From: Parabacteroides gordonii MS-1 = DSM 23371
GTDB lineage: Bacteria; Bacteroidota; Bacteroidia; Bacteroidales; Tannerellaceae
Assembly: GCF_000969825.1 (NCBI RefSeq)
Contig: NZ_KQ033919.1
Location: 3,422,749 to 3,486,748 of the forward strand
Direction of reading: 5' to 3'
DNA length: 64,000 nucleotides
A program made the translations under genes and the position numbers. This document shows positions 7,069 through 59,860 of the stretch, piece after piece. The notes under the pieces were generated by a model. It worked only from the letters and a program-made list of their open reading frames with translations, had not been told where the DNA came from and did not search any database. Positions within the stretch are counted from its first letter, which is position 1. Every line of letters begins with the position of its first letter.

Positions 7069-10000
7069 ATGAACAAAAAGTTTTCTACGTTAGTAGCTGC
7101 ACTGTTAGCTTCGGGTGGATTGTTCTACGCTGTAGACGCAATGATCCTGCCTGCAGGTGACGGGGTGGCTCAAACATTTGTAGGGGTAAGAACGGCTGAC
7201 AATGAAGCTACGGCTGAGGTTGTGGCTTGCAACTCTTCTATTGCAAAAGGGAAATTTGTTGCTGCCTGGAGAGTCAAAACGGTTTCGGGCCCTCATTACT
7301 ATCTGGAAGTAGCAGATGCTAGCGCCTCTGACTGGATCTTATGTGAAGGTAAGATTCAGAAGATTACAGGTGATAATGTAGCTTTCGCTGCACAAAAAGC
7401 TATTGAAATCACTATTGCTGCTGACAATAGACTTATGTCAGGTAGTGACTTTCTTGTAATTGACACGAAAACAGGTGCTGTTTCTTTAGGTGATACCAAA
7501 GCCGGTAATGCGTACTTGTTTAGTGACAAGACAACACAGGTTGCACCAGAAGCTATTGGCTCGACAAGCGGTAGTCTCGCTTTGGCAACAAACGTGACTA
7601 CTCAGACTGTTGGTACAAATGATGTAAAGTGGGAGGAAACTCCAGAAAAGGAAGGGACGGTAAAGCTTTCTAGTTCGGTAAGCAGCGCAGAAACTGAGTG
7701 GAGTATTGAAAAAAGTAGTGGTAATTTCTATCTAAGGCAAGGTTCTTCTTATTTGAAGAATGTAGATGGCGGATTAATACTTGTTTCTGCTTGTCCTACA
7801 GATGACGCTTCTGTAGTGTCTGTTGCAGGAGTTAATCACGGCCTTCAGATAGGTGGTAAATATTTATCTGCAAATTTGACTTTGGGAGATGGTGAGGATG
7901 CGGCAACTGGGTTCTATTTGGTGAAAAATCCTAACACTTCTATGCCTAGTGCAGAATCAGGCATTGCGGCAGGTAATTATAATGTTGTTAGTGTCCAAAG
8001 CACAGAATTAGGAAACACTGTCACCAACTGGGAAGAGCTTGTAATTAACCAGGCCATTAAACCCGCCTCAGCTACCCTTGCACAAAACACCTATAGCAGT
8101 ACAGCTGTCGAAGTAGGTGAAAAATGGACGGTTACTGCTGACAATAATGAGTTAACTGTTAAAAGCGCCAACTATTTCTTGAATGCTCCTACTAGTGATA
8201 ACGATGTTGTATTGGGTAAAGAAACCGAGGCTACTCCATTAACATTTGATGGTGCTGACGGTGCTTTGAAGAGCGGAGCCCTCTTCCTTATGAATAATAG
8301 TGGCATTAAAACTAACGATGGGGGAACAGGAAAAAAACTCTATCTCTTTACCGAAGCAGGAGTATTAGTAACTGATGCGACAAAGATCGATCCGGCTACT
8401 AGCTATCTTATCGCAGAAAAGAAAGCAACTACGACTGCCACTGAAATGGTAAATGTTACCGTTGTTAAGCAAACTCCGGGTGCCCCTGGTGCAGATATAC
8501 CGGGCATGGCTGAAAATGGCTTAAGTGTCGATGGAGAAAGTGGAGAGATTACTGTCTCTAGTGAAGAAACAAAGAATATCCCTGCACCTGCCACTGTTGC
8601 AATTGGAGAGAATGTTCTTTCTGTTGTATCAGGCAAAGTAGTTTATTTACCGGCTAAAGAAGCAGCTAAAGCTGACTCTTGGGTATTGGTAGATGGTAAA
8701 TATAAGAATGTAGATCTTGAAAAAGCAGGTGAAACAAAGATTTGGCTGAAAGCAGCTGAAGGCCTGTTCAAATCGACAGCTGCTCCTTTTACATTAGTAG
8801 AAAATACTACTGCTGCTTCTACTTTTATAGCTAAGCCGGAAGGTAAATTGGCTATTACTGATGGTGGAAATACAAAAGAATTCAATGACGTCGTTTTGAC
8901 TGCAACCGGTGAAGCTACCGCAGCAACTATTGCTGATGCCAATAAGGGTATCCATTTGACTTCTGTTGCAACTGGCAATACAGTTCTTTTGGGTAATGGT
9001 ACTCAATTTGTTGGAACAGACGGAACAGGATCAAAAGACAACGCTACTCTTTGGGTTGTTAGCAAGACTGCTACAACTACTGTCGGCACATATCGTTACT
9101 CTTTCAAACAGAAAGATACTGAGACTTATTTTGAAGTAGGGGACGTAAACGAGTTTACTGCAGAAGACTATAATGGAGGTTTTGCATTAAAGGCTCCGAA
9201 TGGTCAGTACGTTTCAATTTCCAATAAAGGAGTAGCTTCTTTGGTTAGTGAATCAACATCTTCTGCCCTGTTCGGTATTCCTGCCAGTGCAAAACCATTC
9301 ACAGCTAAAGAAATCCTTTCAGACCACGGTACACTGACAAGCTTCAACCTGTCTTTGTGGGATAAAAAGGATGGTACTTCAACTTTGGTTCAGAACCCGT
9401 TTGAAAATGCTGACCTGGTTCCGGTATATTATGATGCTGCAAAGAAAACATTCACTCCGATCACAGCCGATAACGCTTCTACACTTACTAATCCTAGTAC
9501 TTTCTTATTGAAGAAAGGCAGCAGCTATATCGTTGTTGAAACAACAAAAGACTCTGAATGGAGTAACATCAACACCGAACTGGTTAAGGGTGGCTACAAG
9601 TTTGTCACTTTGAGCGAAAAGGCAATGGCTGATGTAATGACGACCGGTGAATGGAAAGACGGCTCTTATGCTCCGTACTTTACATTCAACTTCGATCAGA
9701 ATAGTGTAGATGCTGGCGTGGCAACTGCCAAGACTCCAATCTATACGATCGAAGTATCTGATAAGGATAAAGCGAATGCAAGTAAAATCTCTACATTCAC
9801 TATCAAAACAGGTGCACAGGCCGGTACTTATCTGACAACTTCTTCAGAGGCTGCTTACTGGGTATACGCAGAATTCAGTGCAAACAACGCAGTTCGCGGT
9901 GACTCCGACAAGGATTACAACCCGCTGAACATGAAGTATGTAAACATTACATTCGTAAACCATGCAAGCATAACCTGGAATAACATCAAGCTGAATGACA

Positions 10001-11925
10001 AAGTGCTGGGTGCAGAAGTAAAACCTGCTGATGCAGACAACTTCCTGTTCTCAAAACCGGAAGGCCAATGGGCTGTTCAGATGTCTGCCGCAACTGCTGC
10101 TGTAGCTAAAGGCGAAGCATTGGATAATGTTTATGGCTTTACTTTCGTAAACCGTGAAAGTGGCAAAAAGTATTCAGTTGACAAGATGTATTATCTGGGT
10201 AACAACAAGTATGCGGTTGCCAGCTCTTCTAAATTTGCTGAAAATGCAGGTACACTTCGCGATACTTTGGCAATCACTCCGGTAGAAGGATTGAAGAATA
10301 ACACAATCCAACGCGACGGTTACAAGAACCTGACAGCTGAAGAAGTACAGGATCAATTGTTCAACCTGTTGCTGGCTTCTTCTGAAGAAGATTACTATGT
10401 AGGTGAAAACCATACAGCTAAGAGTCACTTCCTGGGCTTGTCTCATGATGCAGACGCTGCTGTAAACTGGAGAATCGTTCCGCTGACAGCTGCCAGAGCT
10501 TACAATGCAGACAAAGAACTGACTCAGGCTTCAGACTCTGTATATGTATTCAATCATCCGCAGTATTATAAAGCTTCCGACAAGAAGTTCTATCAGTACA
10601 ACGATACATTGGCTATCATCGGTTATGCTTTGCAGAACACGGCTAACGATGAATTCCTGACTTACGAAAATCCGCAGACAACAGATAGATTGTCTATGAT
10701 TTGCGATCCTAATTTCAAATCTTACACAACGACTAAGAATATCTCTGAAGCTTATCGTTTCGTATTGAAAGAAAAGGGAACAGACCTGTACAACATCATC
10801 GGCGTTGACTATCCTACATATAAAAATGGTCTCGTAGAAGATGAAACAACTCATGCAACTCTGGATTTGAGTAGCAAGCTGTACGGTGCTACCACGCTGA
10901 CAAAACAGGGTGCTGTAGAAGTAGTAGGTGCTTATGCTCAGATCAACTCTAACGACCTGTTCAAAGTACAGAAGTTAGGTGCTCCTGAATATCGTCTGCA
11001 GAGCATGGGTGACACGATCCGCATCTTCCGTCAGGAAAATGATTACGATCAGATGTATGAAAACGGTGAATTCCTGAACCTGGGTAACAAGGCTCAGTTG
11101 ACAACTATGGCTCCGGCCCTGTATGTTGACACTGCTTATGTGAAACGTGGTAACAACAACCGTTATCAGTATCTGTTGGTTGTTAATCCGGAATATAAGG
11201 CAGCTGTTTACGACAATGCAAACCACCTGTTGAAACCGGATACAATGTACGGTCGTTTCCTGGTGAACCTGGTTGACACAGCAAATGTAGCTTACCAGAA
11301 CGGTGCTATCCATGCTAACAAGTATATCAACGATACTGAAGCAGGTGAAACATATGCTAAGTTAGGTTTCGTATATGGTTTCCGCACAGCCGACAAACTG
11401 TATATCACCGACAAGAACTATAAGAAGAGTGCGAAAGCATCTGATGTAATCGACCTGGGCACAAGCGACTTCAACACCGCTAAGTTCGCCTTCCGTTACA
11501 TCGATCCGATCAACCACGAAGCCGACGGTTCATTCAAGATCCAGACAGGTTACTACGACTATAACGCTTACATTGCTAAGAACAAACAGCCGGAAGTAGC
11601 AAACAATGGTTACCTGAAGAACATCAACGGTGTAGTAGTTGTAGCTAATGGTTACGAAGCAGGTGACAAGTTTGATCTGGCTGCAGAACACTCAAACCCG
11701 ACAGCTAACGAAGGTATCAACACATCTGAAGTATCAGTAATTGCTAAGGAAGGTGAAGTTGTTATCAACGGTGCAGCCGGCAAGACAGTAGTGATCACGA
11801 ATGTTCTTGGTCAGACAATCGCCAGCACAGTTCTTTCTTCCGACAACGCTACTATCTCTGCTCCTGCAGGTGTAGTTGTAGTAGCCGTAGAAGGTGAAGC
11901 AGCTGTAAAAGCAATCGTAAAATAA
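7069..11925 (+). CDS. Giant secreted surface protein with DUF6383-like / type IX sorting-like C-terminus
   Basis: A 1618-residue protein with an N-terminal signal peptide (MNKKFSTLVAALLASGGLFY). The body is Thr/Ala/Ser/Val rich with very few Cys and many short strand-like segments such as YLEV, FLVID, YLVKNP and YVGENH, suggesting a long chain of beta modules. The last ~75 residues (GEVVINGAAGKTVVITNVLG, then PAGVVVVAVEGEAAVKAIVK) fit the pattern of a type IX sorting domain: a G-rich strand, an LGQ turn, PAG-V-V and a basic tail. I associate this with DUF6383, common in Parabacteroides. A surface-layer or adhesin role is inference. Codons are plainly more biased toward the highly expressed set (CTG, GTA, AAC, TTC) after about 9.3 kb. 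Confidence 0.75.
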   Translation: MNKKFSTLVAALLASGGLFYAVDAMILPAGDGVAQTFVGVRTADNEATAEVVACNSSIAKGKFVAAWRVKTVSGPHYYLEVADASASDWILCEGKIQKITGDNVAFAAQKAIEITIAADNRLMSGSDFLVIDTKTGAVSLGDTKAGNAYLFSDKTTQVAPEAIGSTSGSLALATNVTTQTVGTNDVKWEETPEKEGTVKLSSSVSSAETEWSIEKSSGNFYLRQGSSYLKNVDGGLILVSACPTDDASVVSVAGVNHGLQIGGKYLSANLTLGDGEDAATGFYLVKNPNTSMPSAESGIAAGNYNVVSVQSTELGNTVTNWEELVINQAIKPASATLAQNTYSSTAVEVGEKWTVTADNNELTVKSANYFLNAPTSDNDVVLGKETEATPLTFDGADGALKSGALFLMNNSGIKTNDGGTGKKLYLFTEAGVLVTDATKIDPATSYLIAEKKATTTATEMVNVTVVKQTPGAPGADIPGMAENGLSVDGESGEITVSSEETKNIPAPATVAIGENVLSVVSGKVVYLPAKEAAKADSWVLVDGKYKNVDLEKAGETKIWLKAAEGLFKSTAAPFTLVENTTAASTFIAKPEGKLAITDGGNTKEFNDVVLTATGEATAATIADANKGIHLTSVATGNTVLLGNGTQFVGTDGTGSKDNATLWVVSKTATTTVGTYRYSFKQKDTETYFEVGDVNEFTAEDYNGGFALKAPNGQYVSISNKGVASLVSESTSSALFGIPASAKPFTAKEILSDHGTLTSFNLSLWDKKDGTSTLVQNPFENADLVPVYYDAAKKTFTPITADNASTLTNPSTFLLKKGSSYIVVETTKDSEWSNINTELVKGGYKFVTLSEKAMADVMTTGEWKDGSYAPYFTFNFDQNSVDAGVATAKTPIYTIEVSDKDKANASKISTFTIKTGAQAGTYLTTSSEAAYWVYAEFSANNAVRGDSDKDYNPLNMKYVNITFVNHASITWNNIKLNDKVLGAEVKPADADNFLFSKPEGQWAVQMSAATAAVAKGEALDNVYGFTFVNRESGKKYSVDKMYYLGNNKYAVASSSKFAENAGTLRDTLAITPVEGLKNNTIQRDGYKNLTAEEVQDQLFNLLLASSEEDYYVGENHTAKSHFLGLSHDADAAVNWRIVPLTAARAYNADKELTQASDSVYVFNHPQYYKASDKKFYQYNDTLAIIGYALQNTANDEFLTYENPQTTDRLSMICDPNFKSYTTTKNISEAYRFVLKEKGTDLYNIIGVDYPTYKNGLVEDETTHATLDLSSKLYGATTLTKQGAVEVVGAYAQINSNDLFKVQKLGAPEYRLQSMGDTIRIFRQENDYDQMYENGEFLNLGNKAQLTTMAPALYVDTAYVKRGNNNRYQYLLVVNPEYKAAVYDNANHLLKPDTMYGRFLVNLVDTANVAYQNGAIHANKYINDTEAGETYAKLGFVYGFRTADKLYITDKNYKKSAKASDVIDLGTSDFNTAKFAFRYIDPINHEADGSFKIQTGYYDYNAYIAKNKQPEVANNGYLKNINGVVVVANGYEAGDKFDLAAEHSNPTANEGINTSEVSVIAKEGEVVINGAAGKTVVITNVLGQTIASTVLSSDNATISAPAGVVVVAVEGEAAVKAIVK

Positions 11926-47129: not shown

Positions 47130-47251
47130 ACTTTCGGTGAAACATTTAGAGGAAATCTGCACTTTATTTCGGTTCTTTGCAGAAAAAAATAAAAATCGCA
47201 TGCAGTATTTCCGCAGTCAATACATTTACATAATAAACACGCGCGGCGTTG

Positions 47252-47803
47252 ATGGGTGAAGAAGAACTGATAAGGCAGTGTATGCGGGGTGCGAATGCAG
47301 CCCGTAAAGAACTCTACGATACTTATGCCAAACAAATGTTAAGCATTTGTTACCGGTATACAGGAGGTATGGACGTGGCTTACGATCTGTTGCATGACGG
47401 ATTTCTGAAAGTCTTTTCATCCTGCTCCGGTTTTACGTATCGTGGGGAAGGGAGCCTAAAAGCGTGGATGAGCCGTATTTTTGTGAATACGGCACTCGAG
47501 TATCTTCGGAAGAAGGATGTACTCAAACAAATAGTCCCCCTTGATATGATTGCTGAAACAGAAGAGGATCCGCCGGAGGAGATCGAACAGATCCCAACGT
47601 CGGTTCTGATGCAATTCGTCCAGGAGTTACCGACGGGTTACCGTACAGTGTTTAACTTATATACATTTGAAGAACGAAGTCACAAAGAGATTGCCGAGCT
47701 CTTACATATAAACGAACGATCATCATCGTCGCAACTGTGTCGGGCAAAAGCAATGCTGGTAAAGAAAGTAAATGATTACATTCAGAAAGAAGCCGGAAGA
47801 TGA
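47252..47803 (+). CDS. ECF-type RNA polymerase sigma factor
   Basis: A 183-residue sigma-70 family protein with regions 2 and 4 only. Region 2: ARKELYDTYAKQMLSICYRY, YDLLHDGFLKVF and GEGSLKAWMSRIFVNTALEY. Region 4: LPTGYRTVFNLYTFEERSHK and EIAELLHINERSSSSQLCRA. The ATG at 47252 follows a TTG at 47249. Its stop overlaps the next gene (ATGA), which encodes a membrane protein with an anti-sigma-like N-terminus, so the pair is probably a sigma/anti-sigma unit sensing envelope state. Confidence 0.9.
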   Translation: MGEEELIRQCMRGANAARKELYDTYAKQMLSICYRYTGGMDVAYDLLHDGFLKVFSSCSGFTYRGEGSLKAWMSRIFVNTALEYLRKKDVLKQIVPLDMIAETEEDPPEEIEQIPTSVLMQFVQELPTGYRTVFNLYTFEERSHKEIAELLHINERSSSSQLCRAKAMLVKKVNDYIQKEAGR

Positions 47804-49101
47804 AAATGGAAGATAAATTAATACAGGAATACCGGATGCGGGAGATTGATTATCAGCTACCGTTGCCGGAGGATGGTTGGGAAAAGCTCGAAGCAGCGTT
47901 CTCTGCTACTCCGCAGGTCCGTCGCTTCCCTTATCGTTGGTTGGCGGCAGCAGTGTCTTTTTTGGCGGTTTTAGGTTCGTCTCTTTACTTTATGGGGATA
48001 GATAAGGAGATAGAACCGGTCTTGTCGGATATCGTTCTTCCTGCTGAACAAGGAAGTGGTATGCCTACTCCGGCTTTTGTTCCGGCGGAGGATGTGAAAC
48101 CGCAACCGGCAGCAAAACAACTGGTGGCTACCGTGCAAAAGAAAGAACCGGAATTACCGGGACTGACTGAAACGGTGTCGGAAATTTATATGTCTATCTC
48201 TGCTTATTTCCATGCAGAGGTGGGAGAAGGGGATGTCGTGGCAAATAATTCTAACAGCCGTTCGGTTGTGGAACATAGCGGTCAGTACGACTATGTTCCG
48301 GAGAGGAATTATGAGCCGTTGCCGAAGAAGAAGTCTTCGTCCGGCAAAGGGTGGACATTCGGTTTATACGCCGGAAATATGTTTGATCGTCATTCTTCTG
48401 CTACGGGAGGATTACAGATGTTGAATGGTTCGGCAACGCGTTCGGATGTAAGTGTGAATAATAACCCGGGTTCGGGAACTTTTGAAGATTACATGAAGAA
48501 TGTGGCTTCGAATGCGTCGAACTTCCGGGATCCGGGTGACTATTCCATGTTTGAACAGATCGCAGTGGCTAACTATCAGAAGCCTACGGGAACGAAGATA
48601 AAGCATAAGTTCCCTCTTTCGGCGGGGCTTACGGTGAAGAAGAAGATCAACGACCGGTTATCGGTGGAGAGCGGGTTGGTTTATACCTTCCTGTCGTCGG
48701 AACTTTCGGCCGGCGAAGTGGACTTCTATTCGCAGGAGCAGCGTTTGCATTACCTGGGTATTCCTTTGAAAGTGAATTATACCTTGTGGAAGAAAGACCG
48801 TTTGTCGGTTTATGCTTCTGCCGGAGGAATGGCCGAAATGTGTGTGGACGGTAGCCTGAATACCAATTATTACCTGAATAACGTCCGGGAGCGTAAAAGC
48901 AAGACTGATCTTGATGTGAACAAGGTGCAGTTGTCCGCTTTGGCTTCGTTGGGTGTACAATATGATATTTCTAAACCCGTTAGTATCTATGCCGAACCCG
49001 GTATCGCTTATTATTTTGATGATAAGAGTGTGGTTGAGACGATCCGGAAAGAGCAGCCACTCTGTGCATCGGTGCAATTCGGAGTTAGATTTGCTTTTTG
49101 A
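47800..49101 (+). CDS. Membrane-anchored protein with anti-sigma-like N-terminus and C-terminal beta-barrel-like domain
   Basis: A 433-residue protein. Residues 1-45 are cytosolic and charged (EYRMREIDYQLPLPEDGWEK), as in sigma-partner proteins. Residues about 46-66 are one hydrophobic helix (WLAAAVSFLAVLGSSLYFMG). A Pro/Glu-rich periplasmic stretch to about 180 leads to a C-terminal domain of about 250 residues with barrel-like strands (GWTFGLYAGNMF, PLSAGLTVKKKI, HYLGIPLKVNYTLW) and the terminal aromatic VQFGVRFAF. The gene overlaps the sigma gene by 4 bp. It is probably an anti-sigma factor that also carries an outer-membrane-type barrel; the topology is inferred. Confidence 0.7.
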   Translation: MKMEDKLIQEYRMREIDYQLPLPEDGWEKLEAAFSATPQVRRFPYRWLAAAVSFLAVLGSSLYFMGIDKEIEPVLSDIVLPAEQGSGMPTPAFVPAEDVKPQPAAKQLVATVQKKEPELPGLTETVSEIYMSISAYFHAEVGEGDVVANNSNSRSVVEHSGQYDYVPERNYEPLPKKKSSSGKGWTFGLYAGNMFDRHSSATGGLQMLNGSATRSDVSVNNNPGSGTFEDYMKNVASNASNFRDPGDYSMFEQIAVANYQKPTGTKIKHKFPLSAGLTVKKKINDRLSVESGLVYTFLSSELSAGEVDFYSQEQRLHYLGIPLKVNYTLWKKDRLSVYASAGGMAEMCVDGSLNTNYYLNNVRERKSKTDLDVNKVQLSALASLGVQYDISKPVSIYAEPGIAYYFDDKSVVETIRKEQPLCASVQFGVRFAF

Positions 49102-50334: not shown

Positions 50335-51093
50335 TTATTTGCCGGAAGCCAGTGCACTGCGTTTGCTCCGGTTGAAACTCCGGTAGGGGTCGAGCTCGAT
50401 CTCTACGTCCGGTTCGATGAGTTCTTCCCTTTCCTCACAAACAAATTTGATGTATTTGATGTTCAGTCCGCGGTCGAGCCACTGCTGTTCGTAATATGTC
50501 TTGATAGACAAGATATTGTCTGCCAGGTCGGAGTGATAAAGATCGTCGTTGCTGAACAGGACGGGGTAATGGTTGGCTTTCACCATTTCGCAGGTGTAGG
50601 TGTACATAAAGTTACTGTCCGTCTTCAGATGGATGATGCCATCTCCGGCCAGTATTTCGCGGTACATCTTCATGAAGCGAGTGGAAGTCAGTCGTTTGTT
50701 GACCTTTTTCATTTGCGGGTCGGGGAATGTGATCCATATTTCAGCAACTTCTCCGGGGGCGAAGAAATGGGAGATCAGTTCGATACTGGTGCGCAAGAAG
50801 GCTACATTTGTCATACCCGACTCCATAGAGTCTTTGGCTCCTGTCCACATACGGGCACCTTTGATATCTACACCGATGAAGTTCTTGTCCGGAAAGAGCC
50901 GTGCCAGTCCCACCGTATATTCACCTTTACCGCAACCCAATTCGAGTACGATCGGGTTATCATTCTTGAAAAACTCCTTGTGCCAGTGTCCTTTCAGCTC
51001 AAATCCTTTCTCCTGGAGAACGGCAAACGGATACTGGAAAACATGCGGATAACCCGCCATATCGTCAAACTTTGCTAACTTATTTTTTCCCAT
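50335..51093 (-). CDS. trmB: tRNA (guanine-N7-)-methyltransferase
   Basis: An enzyme of about 252 residues that methylates G46 of tRNA using S-adenosylmethionine. It has the SAM-binding [20 protein letters not shown], then [33 protein letters not shown] (the family active-site motif) and [13 protein letters not shown]. The ATG at 51093 (MGKNKLAKF) is used; it lies inside the 3' end of the LytTR regulator gene, a 14-bp overlap. A TATCTTTG sequence directly before it may be an internal promoter. mrp follows. Confidence 0.93.
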
Positions 51094-51799
51094 GCTGCAA
51101 AGATAATACAAATTCGTCGAAGAAGATATCCCGGTAGTTGTTACCGATGGCTATTTCGTATTTGTCGATGTAGATGTCGTTGTTGTCGAAGGAGGCGATT
51201 TGCTGGGTGTTTACTATGTACGAGCGGTTTACCCGCAGGAATATTTTAGGGAGCAGTTCATGGATTGCTTTCATACTGGTCTTGGTGATGATACGCTGGT
51301 CGGGAAGCTGTATGATCACATAGTCTTTTAAGCCTTCGATAAAGAGGACGTCTTTGAAATTTACTTTGAAGAAACGGCGTTCGGACTTGACGAACATAAA
51401 TTCGCTTTCTACATTTTCAATGTTTTCCTTTTCTCCGGTCAGCAGAAGGGCATGGTAAGCCATTGCCTTTTCAACCGCTTTCTGAAATCTTTCGGGAATG
51501 ATCGGTTTGACCAGATAGTCGACGGCATCCACTTCATAACTGTCGATGGCATATTCGGCATAGGCCGTTGTAAATATGACCAAAGTGCTTTTCGGGATGG
51601 TACGGGCAAATTCCAGTCCGGTAACCTTTGGCATGCGGATATCCAGAAAGATCAGGTCGACAGGGTGTTCATGGATAAACTTTGCTGCTGAGGCGGCATT
51701 GTTGAAAGAGCCGGCCAGCGTCAGTTGTCCGGTCTCATTTATCAGCATCTCCACTGCTTCACGGGCCAGCGGTTCGTCGTCTACGATTATGCAATTCAT
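51080..51799 (-). CDS. LytTR-type response regulator
   Basis: A 239-residue two-component regulator. The receiver domain (about 1-120) has the acidic pair in [18 protein letters not shown], the phospho-acceptor Asp in [18 protein letters not shown], a Thr in [16 protein letters not shown] and the Lys in [13 protein letters not shown]. The C-terminal LytTR DNA-binding domain (about 135-235) shows [45 protein letters not shown] and the IGNNYRDIF end. LytTR proteins bind direct repeats about 21 bp apart, which are present at 56427-56475. It overlaps the kinase gene by 4 bp. Confidence 0.93.
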
Positions 51800-52863
51800 A
51801 GTTCCAATTGTAAATTAACGGTGTAACTTTGTTTCATTTCAATGATTTCCAGCGAGTGACGGCCGGGATATAATAACTCCAGGCGTCTTCTGATATTCTT
51901 CAGTCCCAGGCCACCGATACGTGTCTCTTTTACCTCCTCTTCCGGGAGCGGTATGGAGTTTTCGCACCGGAATAGCAACCGGTTGTCCTGTACGATGAAA
52001 GAAAGATGTACGAACGAAGCATTCTCGCTGTCCGTATTATGCTTTACTGCATTTTCAACGAAAGGGATAAACAGGAGCGGAGGAAGCCATACCTTATTTA
52101 TATCACCTTCTTTCGATATGATATAGTTGAAATTATCCCGGCGTATCTTTTCCAGATTCAGGAAATCATTCATAAAATGAATATCCGAACTGAGCTGTAT
52201 CTTTTCCTGCGAACTGTCGTTAAGCTGGTAACGCAGCAGGTCTTCCAGCTTGAATAAAACTTCTGCCGCTTCGTCGCGTCCTTTTTTAATCAATACGTAG
52301 ACGTTGTTCAGCATATTGAAAAGGAAATGCGGATTGATCTGGCTTTTCAGGAATTTCAGTTCCGATTGCAGGGTGGCGGCTTCCAGTTCGTCTATGCGCT
52401 GGTTGTTGCTGATCCAGTGTTTAAAAATGACGAGGGCGGATGAGGCGGCAACCAGTAATCCGCAGGAGACTGTCGAAGAAATGATATTCAGCCACATCAC
52501 CGATGGGCTGGGTGGAATGCTTTCGAACCGGGTATCTTCGAAAAGGGTTTGAAGTGTACCGAGTATGATGATACATAACAGGATCAGGGTTGTTGAACTG
52601 AGCAGGTAACGGAGAAACCGGCCTTTGAGCAGGAATCGCGGTACCAGTACATAGGCATTGACATAGATAAGCATGTCGATCATCAGGAAATAACCGATCC
52701 AGGAGCGGATTCTGGGCGGGGTGATAATCAGTTCATCCGGTGTATCCCAGAACACATTGATCGTAATAAAGAAGACGATCAGTTGCAGCAGGAGATGCCT
52801 GTAAACCCTTTTCTGAGGACTTAGCAGAAAATCGGGTACTATATGGTCTGTCTTAGTTGCCAT
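51796..52863 (-). CDS. LytS/YehU-type sensor histidine kinase
   Basis: A 355-residue kinase with about four membrane helices in residues 18-150 and no large sensor domain. The kinase core keeps every key element: the phospho-acceptor His in LKSQINPHFLFNMLNNVYVL, the N-box in FIPFVENAVKHN and the G-box in IGGLGLKNIRRRLELLYPG. It should phosphorylate the LytTR regulator encoded next (ATGA overlap, 51796-51799). It overlaps the upstream pseudokinase gene by 11 bp, so the three are translationally coupled. Confidence 0.92.
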   Translation of the reverse strand: MATKTDHIVPDFLLSPQKRVYRHLLLQLIVFFITINVFWDTPDELIITPPRIRSWIGYFLMIDMLIYVNAYVLVPRFLLKGRFLRYLLSSTTLILLCIIILGTLQTLFEDTRFESIPPSPSVMWLNIISSTVSCGLLVAASSALVIFKHWISNNQRIDELEAATLQSELKFLKSQINPHFLFNMLNNVYVLIKKGRDEAAEVLFKLEDLLRYQLNDSSQEKIQLSSDIHFMNDFLNLEKIRRDNFNYIISKEGDINKVWLPPLLFIPFVENAVKHNTDSENASFVHLSFIVQDNRLLFRCENSIPLPEEEVKETRIGGLGLKNIRRRLELLYPGRHSLEIIEMKQSYTVNLQLEL

Positions 52864-53935
52864 GTGTATTCATTTTTAATGTAATGGTACTTGTACCTGT
52901 CGTCTTTTCCTGCGTGACGGATAAGGAATAATTATCCGGATAAAGAAGTTCGAGGCGGGTCTTTAAGCTGTCCAGTTCTTTCATGTCCGGTTCTGTCGGA
53001 TCGTCGAATCGGCAGGTGATATGTATCTCTTCTCCTTCCCGGTCGGCTTGCAACAGGATGGAAGGACGTTTTTCCTGTTTCACCGTCCTTTTCAAGGCAT
53101 ACTGGATGATCGGAACAAGCAGCAGGGGGGGAATCAGGACGCCTGTCAATGCTTTGTCGGAAACGATCTGATAGTCGAAAGTGTCCGAATAAAACTTTTC
53201 CAGAGCCAGGTAATGAGTCTGGAAGTTGATCTCGGAATTAAGCAGAACTTTATCACGTGCCCCGTCATACAGTTGATAGCGGAGTAGTTGGCTTAGCCTG
53301 AGCACCATATCGGCAGCCTTTTGCGGTTCGCTTTTGGATAGTACCCCTGTGCGGTTCAGCGTGTTGAACAACAGGGAGGGATTCACCTGCTCTTTCAGGT
53401 TATCCACTTCCGATTGTATCTGTTTCCTTTCCAGTTGGTTTACACGCTGGTTTTCTGTCATCCAGTGTTTTAACAGGACAGTCATGGATATACCGGTAAT
53501 ACAGATCATGTTCAGCATATAATCCGATAAACTATCCAGGATGCTTACCATATTAAAGTAAGAACCTCTAACGGGAGGAATACCGGATGAGGTGAATATC
53601 CAGTATTCCTGTACATATCGTAGTAAAATGAGCAATAAGACGGACACGGAAGAGCAAAGGATATAGACCAGATACTTTTTCTTTAGCAGCAACCTGGGAA
53701 CCAACAGATAAAGGTGCAGATAGCCTACAATGAAATAGGAGATTAGGGTACATATCCCGGCCAGGTAGACCTGATTTCCCAGTTGCTCTAGTCTGGCCCC
53801 AAAGGTATAGACGTTCTGGTTGAGCGATACAACTGTTACAGCCGCGAGCAATAAAATATGACGGGCTATCCTGTATCTGGGTTCAATTAGGAACTGGTAT
53901 AAGAAAGTTTGTTTGTTTATTTTGTTGTCGACCAT
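52853..53935 (-). CDS. Degenerate LytS-type histidine kinase (pseudokinase)
   Basis: A 360-residue paralogue of the next kinase, with about four membrane helices (residues 25-165) and the same overall order. The catalytic residues are lost: the His motif reads LKEQVNPSLLFNTLNRTGVL (Ser for His), the N-box reads VPIIQYALKRT (Tyr for Asn) and the G-box glycines are missing (ELDSLKTRLELLYPD). The frame is intact and overlaps the active kinase gene by 11 bp, so it is retained as a protein. It is likely a sensory or regulatory partner, perhaps in a heterodimer. It starts 64 bp after the TonB receptor gene. Confidence 0.85.
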   Translation of the reverse strand: MVDNKINKQTFLYQFLIEPRYRIARHILLLAAVTVVSLNQNVYTFGARLEQLGNQVYLAGICTLISYFIVGYLHLYLLVPRLLLKKKYLVYILCSSVSVLLLILLRYVQEYWIFTSSGIPPVRGSYFNMVSILDSLSDYMLNMICITGISMTVLLKHWMTENQRVNQLERKQIQSEVDNLKEQVNPSLLFNTLNRTGVLSKSEPQKAADMVLRLSQLLRYQLYDGARDKVLLNSEINFQTHYLALEKFYSDTFDYQIVSDKALTGVLIPPLLLVPIIQYALKRTVKQEKRPSILLQADREGEEIHITCRFDDPTEPDMKELDSLKTRLELLYPDNYSLSVTQEKTTGTSTITLKMNTHGN

Positions 53936-53999
53936 ACAGCGGCTTACTCTTTAGACTGTCCGAAATTACTATTTTATTTGGTATCTGTTTGCATACCGG

Positions 54000-56366
54000 T
54001 TAGAATTCTAGTTTGTAACTGATATTGCTGATAGGAATGCTGTTCCCGTTCCGTTCCATCACACCGCTTTTCAGATTGTAGTGATAACCGTAATATTCTT
54101 CCGTCCCTGTCACATTCAATGCCTTGATGGCGAACTCGTGTGCTACTTTCTTTCTGTTTATTTTGTAGCTGACCGTAAAGTTTGCGATAAACATGACCGG
54201 ATACTGTTCGGAATAAGCCCGTGTTTCGTCATATTGTGCTTCTTTGTCGGGATGTGCCAGGCTTGCTGCATGGTCGAGGGGAGAATAACGCTCTCCTCCT
54301 TGCAGGGTGAATTTGGCGTTGGCACTTAATATGTTCTGTCTTTTGGAACCTACCATCCACTCTTTGCCGATCAATGTGTTGAGGATAAACCGACGGTTAA
54401 ACCGTGTGTTGTGCCAGACGCCGTCTCCTCCTTTGTATTTCGAATCGAAAACAGAGGCTGTAACCAGGTAATAGAATCCGCGGCTCAGATATTGTTCCAG
54501 CGTGATGTCTACCCCGATATTACGTCCTTTCCCTTTGTTTATGAGAGCCTCTTCCACATAAAACTCTCTCCGGTTCAATACGGAATAGGAGCTGTCTGCA
54601 ATAACCGGAACGTCGTACAGGAATTGTGCATAAGGTTCGACTTTAAGAAGCAGATTGTCGGATAATTTATAGCCGAATGTCAGCATCAGGTGGTGAGCCT
54701 TGGTAAAGTCGAGGTCTTTGTTTACGGATTCCTTTCCGGTACTTTTGGAATTGACGAAGTAGACATCCATCTTTTCCATCCGGCTGTGCAAGCCATATGC
54801 CAAGGCAAACGAAGACTTAGTGGTCGGCGCCCATTTAATTCCCAACCGGGGTTCGAGAGTCCAACTATTATTAAGCGTCAGAACCTGGCTGTTCAAGCCG
54901 GCATTTACAGAAAGCCGGTCTGTGATACCGAAAGAGGAACTGGTGTAGGCTGAGATCAGGTCGGTCTGTCCTTTTCCTTTTGAGAGGGTGTTTAGCGGGG
55001 CCGTTTCAAAAGGAGCCAGGTTTAGACGCATATTATAGAACAAACGGGTATAGGTGAAACCTGTCTGGTTGGTATGGCGTGCACTGAATTTCCGGTTGTA
55101 GGAAGATGTCAGGATCAGGTTCGTCGTGTTGTTCTTCTGATAGGTGAACGGGCTGACGGTGTGATCGGCTGCATGGGCATCTTCTGTCGCATTCATACCG
55201 GAATAGGTGGCTGCTAAAGTTGTTTTCAACATTGCATTGTTCGGAAAGAAGTACCGGTGGCTTATCCCTCCGGCAGCCATATATTGTTTGGCTGTCGACT
55301 GGAAATTATCCCGGGTATGTTCCCATTCCAGCGGATCGTCCTCGAAATCGTTTTCGTATTTGTCGATCAGGCTGGTACCCCACACGGCAAAAGTACCGGC
55401 TTTACGTGTCGGAATGTTGAATTTGAAATTCAGGTCCTGGTAATTAAGCGTACCGCCCATGTCGAGGCCGGGATAAATGCTGTTAAGTAGTCCGGTAGTA
55501 GAATAGCGGTAGTTGAAGATATAGGAAGCCTGGTGGTTCTTGCTTAGAGGGCCCTCCGAAGCGACATCTATTCCCAATATACCTACCTGAAAGGTATTCT
55601 CCATTTTCCGGTTGTTCCCGTTACGCAGTTTCATGTCGAATACGCCGGAAACGGCATTCCCGTATTCGGAGGGAAAGGCACCCGTGAAGAAGTCGGAATT
55701 ACCCAGAACCTGGCTGCTGAGTGATGATAAGATACCGCCGCCCAGTATGGATATATCGGCAAAATGGTTCGGATTCGGTATTTCCACATCTTCCATTTTC
55801 CATTGCAGCAGGTGAGGGGCATTCCCGTGGATGGATATTCCGTTGCTGGACAGGTTGGCTGCTACTCCGGCAAACGAACTCACCAGGCGGGCAGGATCAT
55901 CCAGTCCTCCGGCATAACGGCTGGCTTCTTCCACACTAAGCATCCGGGCACCGGTAGCCGCCATTTTGTTGAGAGGCTGTTCCTTGTTGATCTGTGGGCG
56001 GACAACGACTTCGCTTAATTCGTTGACGTTTTCTTTCAGTGAGATGTCCAGATATACTTCCTTCGCGGATGTTACCAGTATTTCGCTGAAGATACCAGGT
56101 TCGTATCCGAGAAAAGAAGCCTGTACGTTATGCCGCCCTACCGGGATCTCCGGCAAAACGAATTGTCCGCGCTCGTCGGTTGTAGTGCCTGTGCCCGGCA
56201 TATCTGAAAGCATGATCGTTACATCAGGCATCGGATGACCGGAGGCCCGGTCGATAACTGTTCCGCGTATGTTTTGAACCGGCTGGGTGTTTCCCTTTTG
56301 TTGAGCACAAATGGATGTTGATAATAAAGAGAGAAGTAAGAATAATAAAAAGTCTCTTTTGTTCAT
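54000..56366 (-). CDS. TonB-dependent receptor with CarboxypepD-like N-terminal domain
   Basis: A 788-residue outer-membrane receptor. Signal peptide (LLSTSICAQQ), then a CarboxypepD regulatory-like domain (about 30-110: GTVIDRASGHPMPDVTIMLS, GQFVLPEIPVGRHNVQASFL), the strand ELSEVVVRPQINKEQPLNK, a plug domain (about 125-235) and a barrel ending ISNISYKLEF. No SusD partner adjoins it. It is the first gene of a minus-strand cluster with the pseudokinase, kinase and LytTR regulator, and may import or report their signal. TATCTTCG (minus strand, 56393-56400) is a one-mismatch -7 box. Confidence 0.88.
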   Translation of the reverse strand: MNKRDFLLFLLLSLLSTSICAQQKGNTQPVQNIRGTVIDRASGHPMPDVTIMLSDMPGTGTTTDERGQFVLPEIPVGRHNVQASFLGYEPGIFSEILVTSAKEVYLDISLKENVNELSEVVVRPQINKEQPLNKMAATGARMLSVEEASRYAGGLDDPARLVSSFAGVAANLSSNGISIHGNAPHLLQWKMEDVEIPNPNHFADISILGGGILSSLSSQVLGNSDFFTGAFPSEYGNAVSGVFDMKLRNGNNRKMENTFQVGILGIDVASEGPLSKNHQASYIFNYRYSTTGLLNSIYPGLDMGGTLNYQDLNFKFNIPTRKAGTFAVWGTSLIDKYENDFEDDPLEWEHTRDNFQSTAKQYMAAGGISHRYFFPNNAMLKTTLAATYSGMNATEDAHAADHTVSPFTYQKNNTTNLILTSSYNRKFSARHTNQTGFTYTRLFYNMRLNLAPFETAPLNTLSKGKGQTDLISAYTSSSFGITDRLSVNAGLNSQVLTLNNSWTLEPRLGIKWAPTTKSSFALAYGLHSRMEKMDVYFVNSKSTGKESVNKDLDFTKAHHLMLTFGYKLSDNLLLKVEPYAQFLYDVPVIADSSYSVLNRREFYVEEALINKGKGRNIGVDITLEQYLSRGFYYLVTASVFDSKYKGGDGVWHNTRFNRRFILNTLIGKEWMVGSKRQNILSANAKFTLQGGERYSPLDHAASLAHPDKEAQYDETRAYSEQYPVMFIANFTVSYKINRKKVAHEFAIKALNVTGTEEYYGYHYNLKSGVMERNGNSIPISNISYKLEF

Positions 56367-56392: not shown

Positions 56393-56400
56393 CGAAGATA
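56393..56400 (-). promoter_or_regulatory. Near-consensus -7 box of the TonB receptor operon
   Basis: Minus-strand TATCTTCG, one mismatch from TAnnTTTG, 27 nt before the ATG. The weak box fits an activator-dependent promoter with the direct repeats upstream. Confidence 0.4.
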
Positions 56401-56426: not shown

Positions 56427-56475
56427 TTGTAGACGGAAGGGGTTCTCTTGTAGATAGAATCCTTTTTATTGTAGA
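56427..56475. promoter_or_regulatory. Three TTGTAGA direct repeats, 21-bp period: candidate LytTR sites
   Basis: TTGTAGA occurs at 56427-56433, 56448-56454 and 56469-56475, spaced exactly 21 bp with unrelated sequence between. On the minus strand they read TCTACAA, upstream of the weak -7 box at 56393-56400. LytTR regulators bind direct repeats with this helical spacing. Confidence 0.6.
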
Positions 56476-56633
56476 CAAGGTAAATCCTGTATTTAGGAAA
56501 TAATATCATTTTTATTAGGTCAAAAGTCATTTTTTATAACTAACGTTCTTCATAAAATGCAGACCTTTGGAACGATCTAACGGATAATGTAGAATAGAGA
56601 TATAACGATACTTGTTTTAATAATAACATACGA

Positions 56634-59276
56634 ATGAAAAGACTGATACTAACATTTTGTGTTTCAACGTTCTTTAGTTTTTCCAATGCTAACGGGCAAT
56701 CAGCCGTCCGGTTGACCGGCCTGCAAAGTGACCATCTTGAAAATCCGATAGGAATAGATAATCCCGCTCCCCGTCTTTCGTGGAAGATGGAAGATAGCAG
56801 GCAGGGGGCGCGGCAACGTGCATACCGGGTGTTGGTTGGCAAAGACTCGATACAGGTGGCCGGCGGAACTGCCGATATGTGGGACACCGGAAAGCTAATC
56901 TCCGAAAATATATTGGTTACCTATGCCGGGAAGCCACTGGAGCCTTGTACGAAATATTACTGGAAAGTAATAAGTGATGATTTGCTGGAAAAGGAAGTCG
57001 TTTCGTCCGTCCATTCTTTTGAGACAGGCATGATGAGCATAAAGAACTGGCAAGGAGCCTGGATTGGCGACGGAAAAGACAAAGACTATCAGCCTGCCCC
57101 TTATTTTCGCAAGAAGTTTGCTGCAGGTAAAACGATAAAATCGGCACGCGCCTATATCGCTGCGGCTGGACTATACGAATTGTATATCAACGGAGAGAAG
57201 ATTGGTGACCACCGCCTCGATCCGTTGTACACCCGTTTCGACAGACGTAATCTGTATGTTACCTACGATGTAACCGGCCAGCTCCGGAACGGAGATAATG
57301 CCATAGGAGTGCTTTTGGGTAACGGATGGTACAACCACCAATCGAAGGCCGTGTGGGATTTCGACCGGGCTCCCTGGCGTAACCGGCCTGCATTCTGTAT
57401 GGATCTCCGTATCACTTACAGCGATGGAAGTGTCGAAACCATTCCTACCGATCTTAGTTGGAAAACTTCTTCAGGTGGACTGATCTTCAACAGTATCTAT
57501 ACCGGAGAGCATTACGACGCCCGTCTTGAACAGGCCGGCTGGAATATGCCGAACTTTGATGACTCTAAGTGGAATGGAGTGGGATACAGGGGCGCCCCTT
57601 CCCAAAACATTGTAGCGCAGCAAGCCCGTCCGATCCGTAATGTTCTGACTATTCCCGCAAAATCAATCAATAAGATAAATGAAAAGACGTATGTATTCGA
57701 TTTCGGACAGAATATGTCGGGAGTAACCCGGATAAATGTTTCGGGAGAGGAAGGAACAGAGGTCAGGATCATGCACGGAGAGCGGCTCTTTGATAATGGA
57801 CGTATCGATATGTCCAATATCGATGTTTATTACAGGGGAGATAAGGTGAAAGATCCTTTCCAGACAGATATATTGATCTTGAGTGGTGGTAAAGATGAGT
57901 TTATGGCAAAATTCAATTATAAAGGTTTCCGTTATGTGGAAGTAACCAGCGATAAGCCGATCGAACTCAATCAAAACAGCCTGACTGCTTATTTCATGCA
58001 CAGCGATGTCCCTTCTGTGGGAAAGATCAATACATCGAGCGAACTTGTCAATAAACTCTGGTGGGCTACCAATAACGCTTATCTGTCAAACCTGATGGGC
58101 TATCCGACCGACTGTCCGCAGCGTGAAAAGAACGGCTGGACAGGCGACGGTCATTTTGCCATAGAAACGGCTTTGTATAATTATGATGGCATTACAGTCT
58201 ATGAGAAATGGCTGGCAGACCATCGCGACGAACAACAACCTAATGGTGTTCTCCCTGATATTATCCCGACAGGAGGATGGGGATACGGCACGGATAACGG
58301 ATTAGACTGGACAAGTACGATTGCAATTATCCCCTGGGAGCTATATATGTTTTATGGTGACAGTAAACTGTTGGTCGACTGCTATGAAAACATTAAGCGT
58401 TATGTCGATTACGTAGACCGCACAAGCCCGAACCATCTGACTACCTGGGGACGTGGCGATTGGGTGCCTGTCAAGTCCCAGTCAAATAAGGAGCTGACAT
58501 CTTCCATCTATTTCTATGTAGATACCCGGATCTTGGCTAATGCAGCCAAGCTGTTTAACAAACAGGAAGATCTGGCTTATTACACGGCATTGGCGGAGAA
58601 GATAAAGAATGCGGTGAACGATAAATACCTGAATAAGGAAACAGGCATTTATGCCAACGGCAGTCAGACGGAATTAAGTGTTCCTTTACAATGGAAAATA
58701 GTTCCCGACAATATGATTGCTAAAGTTGCACAAAATCTGGCAAAGAAAGTGGAAGAAGCCGGATTTCACCTTGATGTCGGTGTATTGGGAGCCAAAGCAA
58801 TCCTGAACGCATTAAGCGAAAACGGATATGCGGAAACGGCCTATAAGGTAGCCGCGCAAGATACTTATCCTTCGTGGGGTTGGTGGATTGTCAACGGAGC
58901 AACGACTTTACTGGAGAACTGGGACTTGAAAGCCGAACGCGATATTTCAGACAATCACATGATGTTCGGGGAAATAGGCGGATGGTTCTATAAAGGCTTG
59001 GGAGGTATCTTCCCCGATCCTGAGCAACCCGGTTTTAAACATATCCTGCTGCGTCCAAACTTCGTAAAAGAACTGAAGCATTTCGAAGCACAACATGAAT
59101 CCCCTTATGGCCGGATCGTTTCCAAATGGAAGTGGGATAGGAGAAAGATTAATTATGAAGTGATCGTCCCAGCCAATAGTACGGCAACCCTTTATCTTCC
59201 GGACAATATAAAAGGTGATAAGGTGATCGAACTGGAAGCAGGCAGACACGATCTCATTTTAACCCTTTCAAAGTAA
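56634..59276 (+). CDS. Alpha-L-rhamnosidase (GH78)
   Basis: An 880-residue exported enzyme (signal peptide MKRLILTFCVSTFFSFSNAN) removing terminal alpha-L-rhamnose from plant or bacterial glycans. It has the N-terminal fibronectin-like RLTGLQSDHLENPIGIDNPA region, the Bac_rhamnosid_N domain (KTIKSARAYIAAAGLYELYI, NGWYNHQSKAVWDF) and the (alpha/alpha)6 catalytic barrel. The catalytic core includes GYPTDCPQREKNGWTGDGHF with acidic residues expected to include the general acid, and WGRGDWVP. The C-terminal beta domain ends RHDLILTLSK. It is divergent from the TonB receptor operon and shares the region with the 21-bp repeats. Confidence 0.92.
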   Translation: MKRLILTFCVSTFFSFSNANGQSAVRLTGLQSDHLENPIGIDNPAPRLSWKMEDSRQGARQRAYRVLVGKDSIQVAGGTADMWDTGKLISENILVTYAGKPLEPCTKYYWKVISDDLLEKEVVSSVHSFETGMMSIKNWQGAWIGDGKDKDYQPAPYFRKKFAAGKTIKSARAYIAAAGLYELYINGEKIGDHRLDPLYTRFDRRNLYVTYDVTGQLRNGDNAIGVLLGNGWYNHQSKAVWDFDRAPWRNRPAFCMDLRITYSDGSVETIPTDLSWKTSSGGLIFNSIYTGEHYDARLEQAGWNMPNFDDSKWNGVGYRGAPSQNIVAQQARPIRNVLTIPAKSINKINEKTYVFDFGQNMSGVTRINVSGEEGTEVRIMHGERLFDNGRIDMSNIDVYYRGDKVKDPFQTDILILSGGKDEFMAKFNYKGFRYVEVTSDKPIELNQNSLTAYFMHSDVPSVGKINTSSELVNKLWWATNNAYLSNLMGYPTDCPQREKNGWTGDGHFAIETALYNYDGITVYEKWLADHRDEQQPNGVLPDIIPTGGWGYGTDNGLDWTSTIAIIPWELYMFYGDSKLLVDCYENIKRYVDYVDRTSPNHLTTWGRGDWVPVKSQSNKELTSSIYFYVDTRILANAAKLFNKQEDLAYYTALAEKIKNAVNDKYLNKETGIYANGSQTELSVPLQWKIVPDNMIAKVAQNLAKKVEEAGFHLDVGVLGAKAILNALSENGYAETAYKVAAQDTYPSWGWWIVNGATTLLENWDLKAERDISDNHMMFGEIGGWFYKGLGGIFPDPEQPGFKHILLRPNFVKELKHFEAQHESPYGRIVSKWKWDRRKINYEVIVPANSTATLYLPDNIKGDKVIELEAGRHDLILTLSK

Positions 59277-59567: not shown

Positions 59568-59570
59568 CTG

Positions 59571-59644
59571 CTCTTCCTCTTGGACTTGAACCAAGGACCC
59601 TCTGATTAACAGTCAGATGCTCTAACCAACTGAGCTAAGGAAGA
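59571..59644 (-). tRNA. tRNA-Asn(GTT), copy 3 in transcription order
   Basis: A 74-nt cloverleaf on the minus strand: acceptor TCTTCCT/AGGAAGA with discriminator G, D-arm GCTC...GAGC, anticodon stem TCTGA/TCAGA with loop CTGTTAA (anticodon GTT) and T-arm CTTGG-TTCAAGT-CCAAG. CCA is not encoded. Confidence 0.95.
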
Positions 59645-59679
59645 AAATATGTCTTTCAGTCTTTCCCGATGTCTTTTCG

Positions 59680-59753
59680 CTCTTCCTCTTGGACTTGAAC
59701 CAAGGACCCTCTGATTAACAGTCAGATGCTCTAACCAACTGAGCTAAGGAAGA
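59680..59753 (-). tRNA. tRNA-Asn(GTT), copy 2
   Basis: Identical in sequence to the copies on either side; anticodon GTT. The spacers are also nearly identical, so the cluster arose by tandem duplication. Confidence 0.95.
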
Positions 59754-59786
59754 ATATGTTTTTCAGTCTTTCCCGATGTCTTTCTG

Positions 59787-59860
59787 CTCTTCCTCTTGGA
59801 CTTGAACCAAGGACCCTCTGATTAACAGTCAGATGCTCTAACCAACTGAGCTAAGGAAGA
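59787..59860 (-). tRNA. tRNA-Asn(GTT), copy 1 (promoter-proximal)
   Basis: Identical 74-nt tRNA-Asn, first to be transcribed. A minus-strand TACTTTTG box (59922-59929) lies upstream. Confidence 0.95.

Follow-up and report, generated by a model that had tools for sequence, protein, structure and literature searches.

The closest design to the gene cluster examined here that we found in the literature is FasBCA of group A Streptococcus, in which two sensor-kinase-like membrane proteins are combined with one regulator. Its genes are co-transcribed, FasB and FasC form a heterodimer, with no homodimer seen in the two-hybrid assay, and the kinase domain of FasC, a proposed pseudokinase, is dispensable (PMC12675982; this and the accounts of other kinases cited below are represented by those portions of their text that were available). 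Two further systems may serve with FasBC as precedents, by analogy, for kinase pairing: in RocA-CovS, also of group A Streptococcus, the membrane pseudokinase RocA interacts with a live kinase and can do without its own histidine, and overexpressed RocA without its CA domain complements (PMC7028121); and in RetS-GacS of Pseudomonas aeruginosa one kinase regulates another via a mixed DHp interface (PMC12148439). RocA, RetS and ChrS are all dead or non-canonical kinases that act on live ones (PMC7028121, PMC12148439, PMC9491836), and BtsS/BtsR combines a LytS-type kinase with a LytTR regulator, the pair activating a transporter gene (PMC10653868). Here we describe a cluster of four genes, encoding an outer membrane receptor, a dead kinase, a live kinase and a LytTR regulator, in a 64-kb contig stretch of Parabacteroides gordonii ("the window", positions 3422749-3486748 of contig NZ_KQ033919.1 in a 6.79-Mb genome); judged from sequence, it is a real, recurrent signalling cassette with a pseudo-histidine-kinase of single origin.

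A search of titles and abstract starts, taking in few subscription papers, found no description of this layout, and within that scope the view of an earlier note on this DNA, that it is not a described system, stands. The features are the following (aa, amino acids; ORF, open reading frame; bp, base pairs):

54000..56366, minus strand: TonB-dependent-transporter-like outer membrane receptor, 788 aa, predicted to comprise a CarboxypepD N-terminal domain, plug and barrel (ORF, Pfam for CarboxypepD, model and structure matches, family members).
52853..53935, minus strand: dead kinase (pseudokinase, kinase 1), 360 aa, PF06580, with His replaced by Ser and with the N-box Asn and G-box absent (ORF, Pfam, motifs, model).
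51796..52863, minus strand: intact PF06580 histidine kinase (kinase 2), 355 aa, LytS-like with no 5TMR-LYT match (ORF, Pfam, motifs).
51080..51799, minus strand: LytTR response regulator, 239 aa, with receiver and LytTR DNA-binding domain (ORF, Pfam).
56427..56476, minus strand: three direct repeats [GA]TCTACAA with an exact 21-bp period (56476-56469, 56455-56448 and 56434-56427), predicted LytTR binding boxes (sequence, orthologue promoters).
56393..56400, minus strand: TATCTTCG, a -7-box-like element of putative promoter role, kept in orthologous promoters.

The ORFs agree to the base with the order and junctions that the earlier note had given: a gap of 64 bp between receptor and kinase 1, in which no terminator-like site was found, an overlap of 11 bp between the two kinases, and one of 4 bp between kinase 2 and the regulator. 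Both kinases match His_kinase PF06580 (63.0 bits for kinase 1, 79.9 for kinase 2), and the comparison of their motifs upholds the claim that only the second is catalytically intact: the H-box reads NPSLLFN in kinase 1 versus NPHFLFN in kinase 2, and neither the N-box Asn nor the GGLGL box is present in kinase 1, whereas kinase 2 has all three motifs. The regulator deserves its LytTR label, with Pfam matches to Response_reg and LytTR. The name LytS had been applied more loosely: an intact PF06580 kinase with a LytTR partner is indeed present, but neither kinase matches the 5TMR-LYT input domain in Pfam at E<=1, and we therefore write LytS-like. In the predicted structure of the dead kinase (pLDDT 83.4, pTM 0.56), four long N-terminal helices lead into further helices and a small alpha/beta lobe, and among solved structures the GanS kinase domain matches it best (6swk, E 2.1e-07); about four N-terminal helices are thus taken, on the model, as putative membrane helices.

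The four-gene order is conserved well beyond this genome. Close orthologues (70-81% identity), each in receptor-dead-live-LytTR order, occur in 4 of 34 other genomes of the genus searched (G004, G012, G021 and G023; the receptor ORF of G004, a metagenome-assembled genome, ends early), and a second, paralogous cluster, DUF6268-dead-live-LytTR, is found in G004, G021, G023 and P. gordonii itself, where a GtrA-like gene comes next. A scan of named genomes, using a profile built from 8 dead kinases, gave 385 confirmed loci, of which the best 80 were analysed; these hold 47 dead-kinase places in 44 loci (L085, with both kinases in one ORF, counts as one place). Directly downstream lies an intact kinase at 44 places, LytTR at two (L085, L088) and the end of the stretch at one, and LytTR is the third gene in 39/47. 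Upstream, where the stretch ends at 6 of the 47, a receptor of the same family precedes 30 of the 41 places with upstream sequence (29 identified by script and one, L078, in which the dead kinase is divided between two ORFs). Record titles place the loci in Bacteroides, Parabacteroides, Dysgonomonas, Butyricimonas and Tannerella and, outside the order, in Sphingobacterium haloxyli (L098). With five candidates scored per genome, at least 9 of 393 genomes of the order hold a dead-live pair with checked motifs (G000, G064, G093, G139, G167, G263, G370, G385 and G404). The earlier note had named a lack of conserved gene order in related species as grounds for giving up the unit; the order was found well outside the genus.

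Position and descent are the informative facts about the dead kinases, since the class is defined by the missing His. Among distinct adjacent kinase pairs on the same strand, His is absent from the first member and present in the second in 58/58 (ORFs of 150-599 aa above 60 bits, exact duplicates counted once; one pair made of the two halves of a broken dead kinase is set aside, and a triple in L055 falls below the threshold). The dead kinases form one clade (45/45 rows) with SH-aLRT 100 when all columns are used, and again 100 when the H-box and ATPase-lobe columns are removed. The 45 live partners likewise group together, with support of 86 on all columns and 62 on the reduced ones, and unpaired kinases make up a third group (38 rows with support 78; 36 rows with support 94 on the reduced columns); the first tree excludes kinases shorter than 300 aa or with ambiguous letters as well as the G021, G023 and G012 rows, and the second drops two more long rows. 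Within the clade, which spans at least four families, the His position is occupied by E (10), A (8), S (7), Q, G and D (4 each), T (3) and, once each, R, I, L, V and N; the H-box of the live partners reads INPHFLFN, with one VNPHFLFN (L270). The N-box Asn is absent from 42/45 dead kinases and present in 83/83 live ones, and a GGxG box is found in 0/45 dead kinases (mostly a gap there) versus 79/83 live. The simplest reading of these trees would be a single duplication and a single loss of catalytic function, with the two genes inherited together over a long time.

The dead kinases are evidently under purifying selection, with dN/dS of 0.05-0.19 among four close orthologues (0.05-0.13 for the live kinase, five orthologues), values reliable only to their order of size because dS exceeds 1 in nearly all comparisons. 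Protein identity by domain in the dead kinase is 0.91-0.94 for the DHp domain, 0.73-0.82 for the membrane part and 0.65-0.72 for the ATPase lobe, and in the live kinase 0.87-0.93, 0.70-0.76 and 0.80-0.84, respectively (5 of the 6 pairs among four genomes, the close pair G021-G023 being omitted). Over the wider set, mean pairwise identity is 0.55 (DHp) and 0.29 (lobe) in 45 dead kinases, and 0.58 and 0.53 in their 45 live partners. The dead gene of G012 stops near residue 224 of the others, so that the lobe is gone, and still retains the overlap with the start of the live gene. Together, the identities and the G012 truncation indicate that selection keeps the dimerisation domain best.

The cluster differs from each of the described systems. 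In FasBCA, H246 of FasC is key for phosphate flow, whereas the dead kinase here is without both His and ATPase motifs; the expectation drawn from Fas that the pseudokinase partner supplies the phospho-histidine does not fit a protein with Ser at that position, nor the first kinases of the 58 pairs, all of which lack His. Fas is also described without an outer membrane receptor, and with six putative membrane helices, against about four here (PMC12675982). RocA is an accessory to CovRS, for which the available text describes no shared operon or receptor (PMC7028121); RetS is inhibitory, and in the available description RetS-GacS comes without a TonB receptor (PMC12148439), unlike the unit we propose below. 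LytS-like kinases such as BtsS are characterised by the 5TMR-LYT domain that was unmatched here, and BtsSR is likewise described, as far as the available text goes, without a dead paralogue or outer membrane receptor (PMC10653868).

In the receptor, the CarboxypepD domains alone scored above the Pfam cut-off, and the Plug and barrel models gave no match at E<=1; its structure was therefore predicted. The AlphaFold2 model, built with 28 relatives (pLDDT 80.5, pTM 0.80), matched solved structures of TonB-dependent transporters in Foldseek, best of all PqqU (9c4o, E 1.5e-23), with Bacteroides BtuB (8bmx), YncD and FepA as further matches, and the receptor's relative in L098 does pass the Pfam barrel cut-off. 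The predicted fold is that of TonB-dependent transporters, plug and beta-barrel, which together with the L098 relative bears out the designation as a TonB receptor despite the missing Pfam matches. Receptors of this family stand upstream of the kinase pair in other genera, full-length members scoring 990-1784 bits. Among the matches listed for the 393 genomes, two candidates being scored per genome, all seven receptors of at least 1020 bits head the receptor-dead-live-LytTR order, with motifs checked. From 953 down to 533 bits, 40 stretches picked along the ranking gave one receptor adjoining a tandem kinase pair (L187), one about 2 kb from such a pair (L188) and one with another kinase gene about 3 kb off (L212), and 37/40 have no kinase in view, some of them on short contigs. 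We therefore rejected a kinase link for the wider receptor family; it is a defined subfamily, not the family at large, that is tied to the pair.

Upstream of the receptor gene, GTCTACAA, ATCTACAA and GTCTACAA follow one another at exactly 21 bp on the minus strand (56476-56427), 61-110 bases before the start codon, and a 7-letter triple at one spacing arose in 0 of 3000 Markov resamples of the region. Related boxes occupy the same places in four orthologous promoters, the third box being best kept, and a TATCTTCG-like element follows them, TA[TC]CTTCG being kept in 5/5 orthologous promoters compared. We take TATCTTCG to resemble the Bacteroides -7 box, for which we assume the consensus TAnnTTTG, and presume a corresponding role. 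Counting 9-letter pairs with at most one mismatch at 21-bp spacing, repeats occur before the first gene in 15/42 cassettes, compared with 22/268 control regions (Fisher p 9e-6), and in 27/31 receptor promoters of related loci with a single kinase (p 6e-21 against the same 268), p values that are too small because the species are related. Some of the 42 regions belong to broken ORFs (L068, L082) or to receptors preceded by an additional small ORF. The next-best spacings are 42 bp in cassettes (0.17; twice the period) and 44 bp in single-kinase loci (0.23). The controls are regions away from the genes of single-kinase loci; they replace a first set of 435 regions that itself peaked at 21 bp because it included receptor promoters of those loci. 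A survey of LytTR sites reported 9-bp repeats 11-12 bp apart and, in Bacteroides, 11-bp repeats 11 bp apart, that is, periods of 20 to 22 bp (PMC6193735; available portions of the text). The three repeats, as predicted LytTR boxes before the receptor gene, suggest autoregulation.

Within the P. gordonii genome, the repeat pattern has its only zero-mismatch match at the receptor promoter, and the motif of the paralogous cluster its only one ahead of that cluster; each pattern was derived from its own sites, so that uniqueness means no more than that other exact sites did not turn up. With up to two mismatches the receptor-promoter pattern gives 34 matches, three of them at one mismatch elsewhere in the genome, versus 46 for the reversed pattern (13 versus 25 for the paralogous motif). 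The reversed patterns match more often than the real ones, and we claim no further regulon targets. In G021, G023 and G004, a 66-aa ORF lies between promoter and receptor (L048:13141-13341, L050:9614-9814 and L052:13764-13964, minus strand), resembling a truncated HU protein; the two tested align with positions 1-38 of the HU family PF00216, at 21.0 and 20.4 bits just short of its cut-off (22.4). P. gordonii lacks this small ORF, and its receptor opens with the ORF's first codons (MNKR), as if fused by deletion.

We propose that the four genes form one self-regulating envelope-sensing unit, a reading to which we give a probability of roughly 60%. The receptor would import a ligand through the outer membrane; the two kinases would pair via their DHp domains, their membrane domains detecting the ligand or its effect; and the live kinase would phosphorylate the LytTR regulator, which would then bind the repeats and induce the receptor operon. 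The features behind this proposal are the co-directional, overlapping genes, the position of the live kinase beside the regulator, the retained DHp domain and the candidate boxes before the receptor; for the heterodimer, the tandem genes and conserved DHp domain go as far as consistency. Lacking phospho-histidine and ATP motifs, the dead subunit can act only through contacts, and it may be a second sensor or a brake released by the signal. Because it has no His, the live kinase in a mixed dimer either phosphorylates its own chain (in cis) or is silenced. A more specific version, which we put forward tentatively and would not yet favour, has the working kinase active only as an obligate mixed dimer, with cis phosphorylation, the dead twin as signal receptor and the outer membrane gene (TonB receptor, DUF6268 or others) as an interchangeable input, so that the cassettes would make up a three-component Bacteroidales family; if true, this would be a sigma-factor-free route from the outer membrane to transcription.

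Several observations weigh against the proposed unit. The receptor is absent from 11 of the 41 places with upstream sequence and is hence not indispensable to the kinase pair: DUF6268 stands upstream in 6 of the 11 (4 identified by script; in the other two, L084 and L085, one ORF intervenes), and the other five (L061, L075, L079, L083 and L088) have a CAAX-like protein (2) or something else or nothing near (3). In L088 the dead kinase and LytTR have no adjacent live kinase; 27/42 cassette promoters yielded no qualifying repeat pair, and in the 268 controls, too, 21 bp is the most frequent spacing (0.082, others at most 0.071); and no flanking partner recurs, the commonest family reaching 5 of 101 flanking proteins (97 of 162 collected, plus 4 from L048 and L054). 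Because the loci were drawn with a dead-kinase profile, their counts should not be read as an unbiased census; many of the species, moreover, are closely related. A laboratory-evolved, truncated ChrS pseudokinase, in the available text, showed no significant heterodimerisation in the two-hybrid assay (PMC9491836). That receptor and signalling genes are mere neighbours, the kinase pair and regulator controlling something else, would suit a pair that also comes after DUF6268, CAAX-protease-like (also in L262 and L266) and other proteins, and a wider receptor family mostly unlinked to kinases, with L187 and L188 standing out among the 40 stretches. We nevertheless regard it as unlikely, since the top-scoring receptors among the matches listed lead the four-gene order in 7/7 and receptors head 30/41 places in the named loci, and since the repeats, with the genome's only zero-mismatch match, precede the receptor gene.

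More plausible, if still doubtful, is that the live kinase works as a homodimer and is inhibited by the dead kinase, which would form silent mixed dimers with it in the way RetS acts on GacS, until a signal bound by the dead subunit releases it. The RetS-GacS complex (7n0e) is among the matches of the dead-kinase model, at rank 35 and alongside many ordinary kinases, and if the live enzyme acts in trans, a mixed dimer without His on one side must be inactive; FasC and RocA, proposed or found to be pseudokinases, support their partners and do not block them, as far as the available accounts go. As for a decaying duplicate on its way out, the drift of the ATPase lobe, its loss in G012 and the split dead-kinase ORFs of L078 and L079 would be expected of one, but a single origin with presence in at least four families, the low dN/dS and a DHp domain about as conserved as that of the live partner make it very improbable. 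With relatives in several families keeping the unit, the dead kinase gives the impression of a retained component, not debris.

The natural pseudo-histidine-kinases that we found in the literature, as far as their available text shows, are single cases; here, in commensal gut bacteria and their relatives, there is a clade of single origin, in a fixed position, with an intact partner and predicted binding sites and often with a TonB receptor encoded alongside. The system makes testable how a kinase without His and ATP motifs alters its partner's output, and whether TonB receptors can signal through a membrane kinase in place of an anti-sigma factor.

A widespread, simpler relative of the cluster is found in the single-kinase loci (L089-L135, e.g. 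L102:4363-8724) of Flavobacterium, Chitinophaga, Pedobacter and Mucilaginibacter, which share with it a TonB receptor, an intact LytS-like kinase, LytTR and the 21-bp repeats, but lack the dead kinase and have a divergent receptor: the four receptors tested all passed Pfam Plug, and four that were aligned are 19-24% identical to the P. gordonii receptor. Among unusual arrangements, L055:7444-10646 (minus strand) carries a run of three kinase-like ORFs in the order live-dead-live (the outer two PF06580 with His, the middle one without a Pfam match and with VQPLMLLY there), next to a SusC-like/SusD pair and a divergent LytTR gene, and the dead kinase directly before LytTR in L088 (7001-8828) adjoins a prismane gene. 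The 702-aa ORF of L085 reads through an ambiguous base, and this apparent kinase fusion was not used as evidence of pairing.

Around the P. gordonii cluster, trmB comes next after the regulator and would overlap it by 14 bp if started at the ATG at 51093; we do not count it into the unit because the two are separated in G021 by a gap and an ORF on the other strand. The rhamnosidase gene at 56634-59276, divergent here, is not adjacent in G021 or G012 and was excluded as well, and deducing a substrate from neighbouring genes was dropped, there being no family with more than 5 members among the 101 flanking proteins. The earlier note was right that the cluster lacks SusD, FecR and hybrid two-component genes and is not a classical utilisation locus: none of these proteins is encoded by the four genes or by their neighbours trmB, mrp, the rhamnosidase gene and the PfkB gene beyond it, nor is an ECF sigma factor. 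An ECF sigma factor gene (47249-47803, plus strand) does lie 3.3 kb beyond the cluster, followed by a gene for a protein of 433 aa whose C-terminal part resembles an outer membrane barrel (the two spanning 47249-49101 of the window, plus strand). Elsewhere in the window, a 1618-aa ORF (7069-11925, plus strand) has a C-terminal DUF6383 as its sole Pfam match at E<=1e-5, and three tRNA-Asn genes stand in tandem at 59570-59860 (minus strand).

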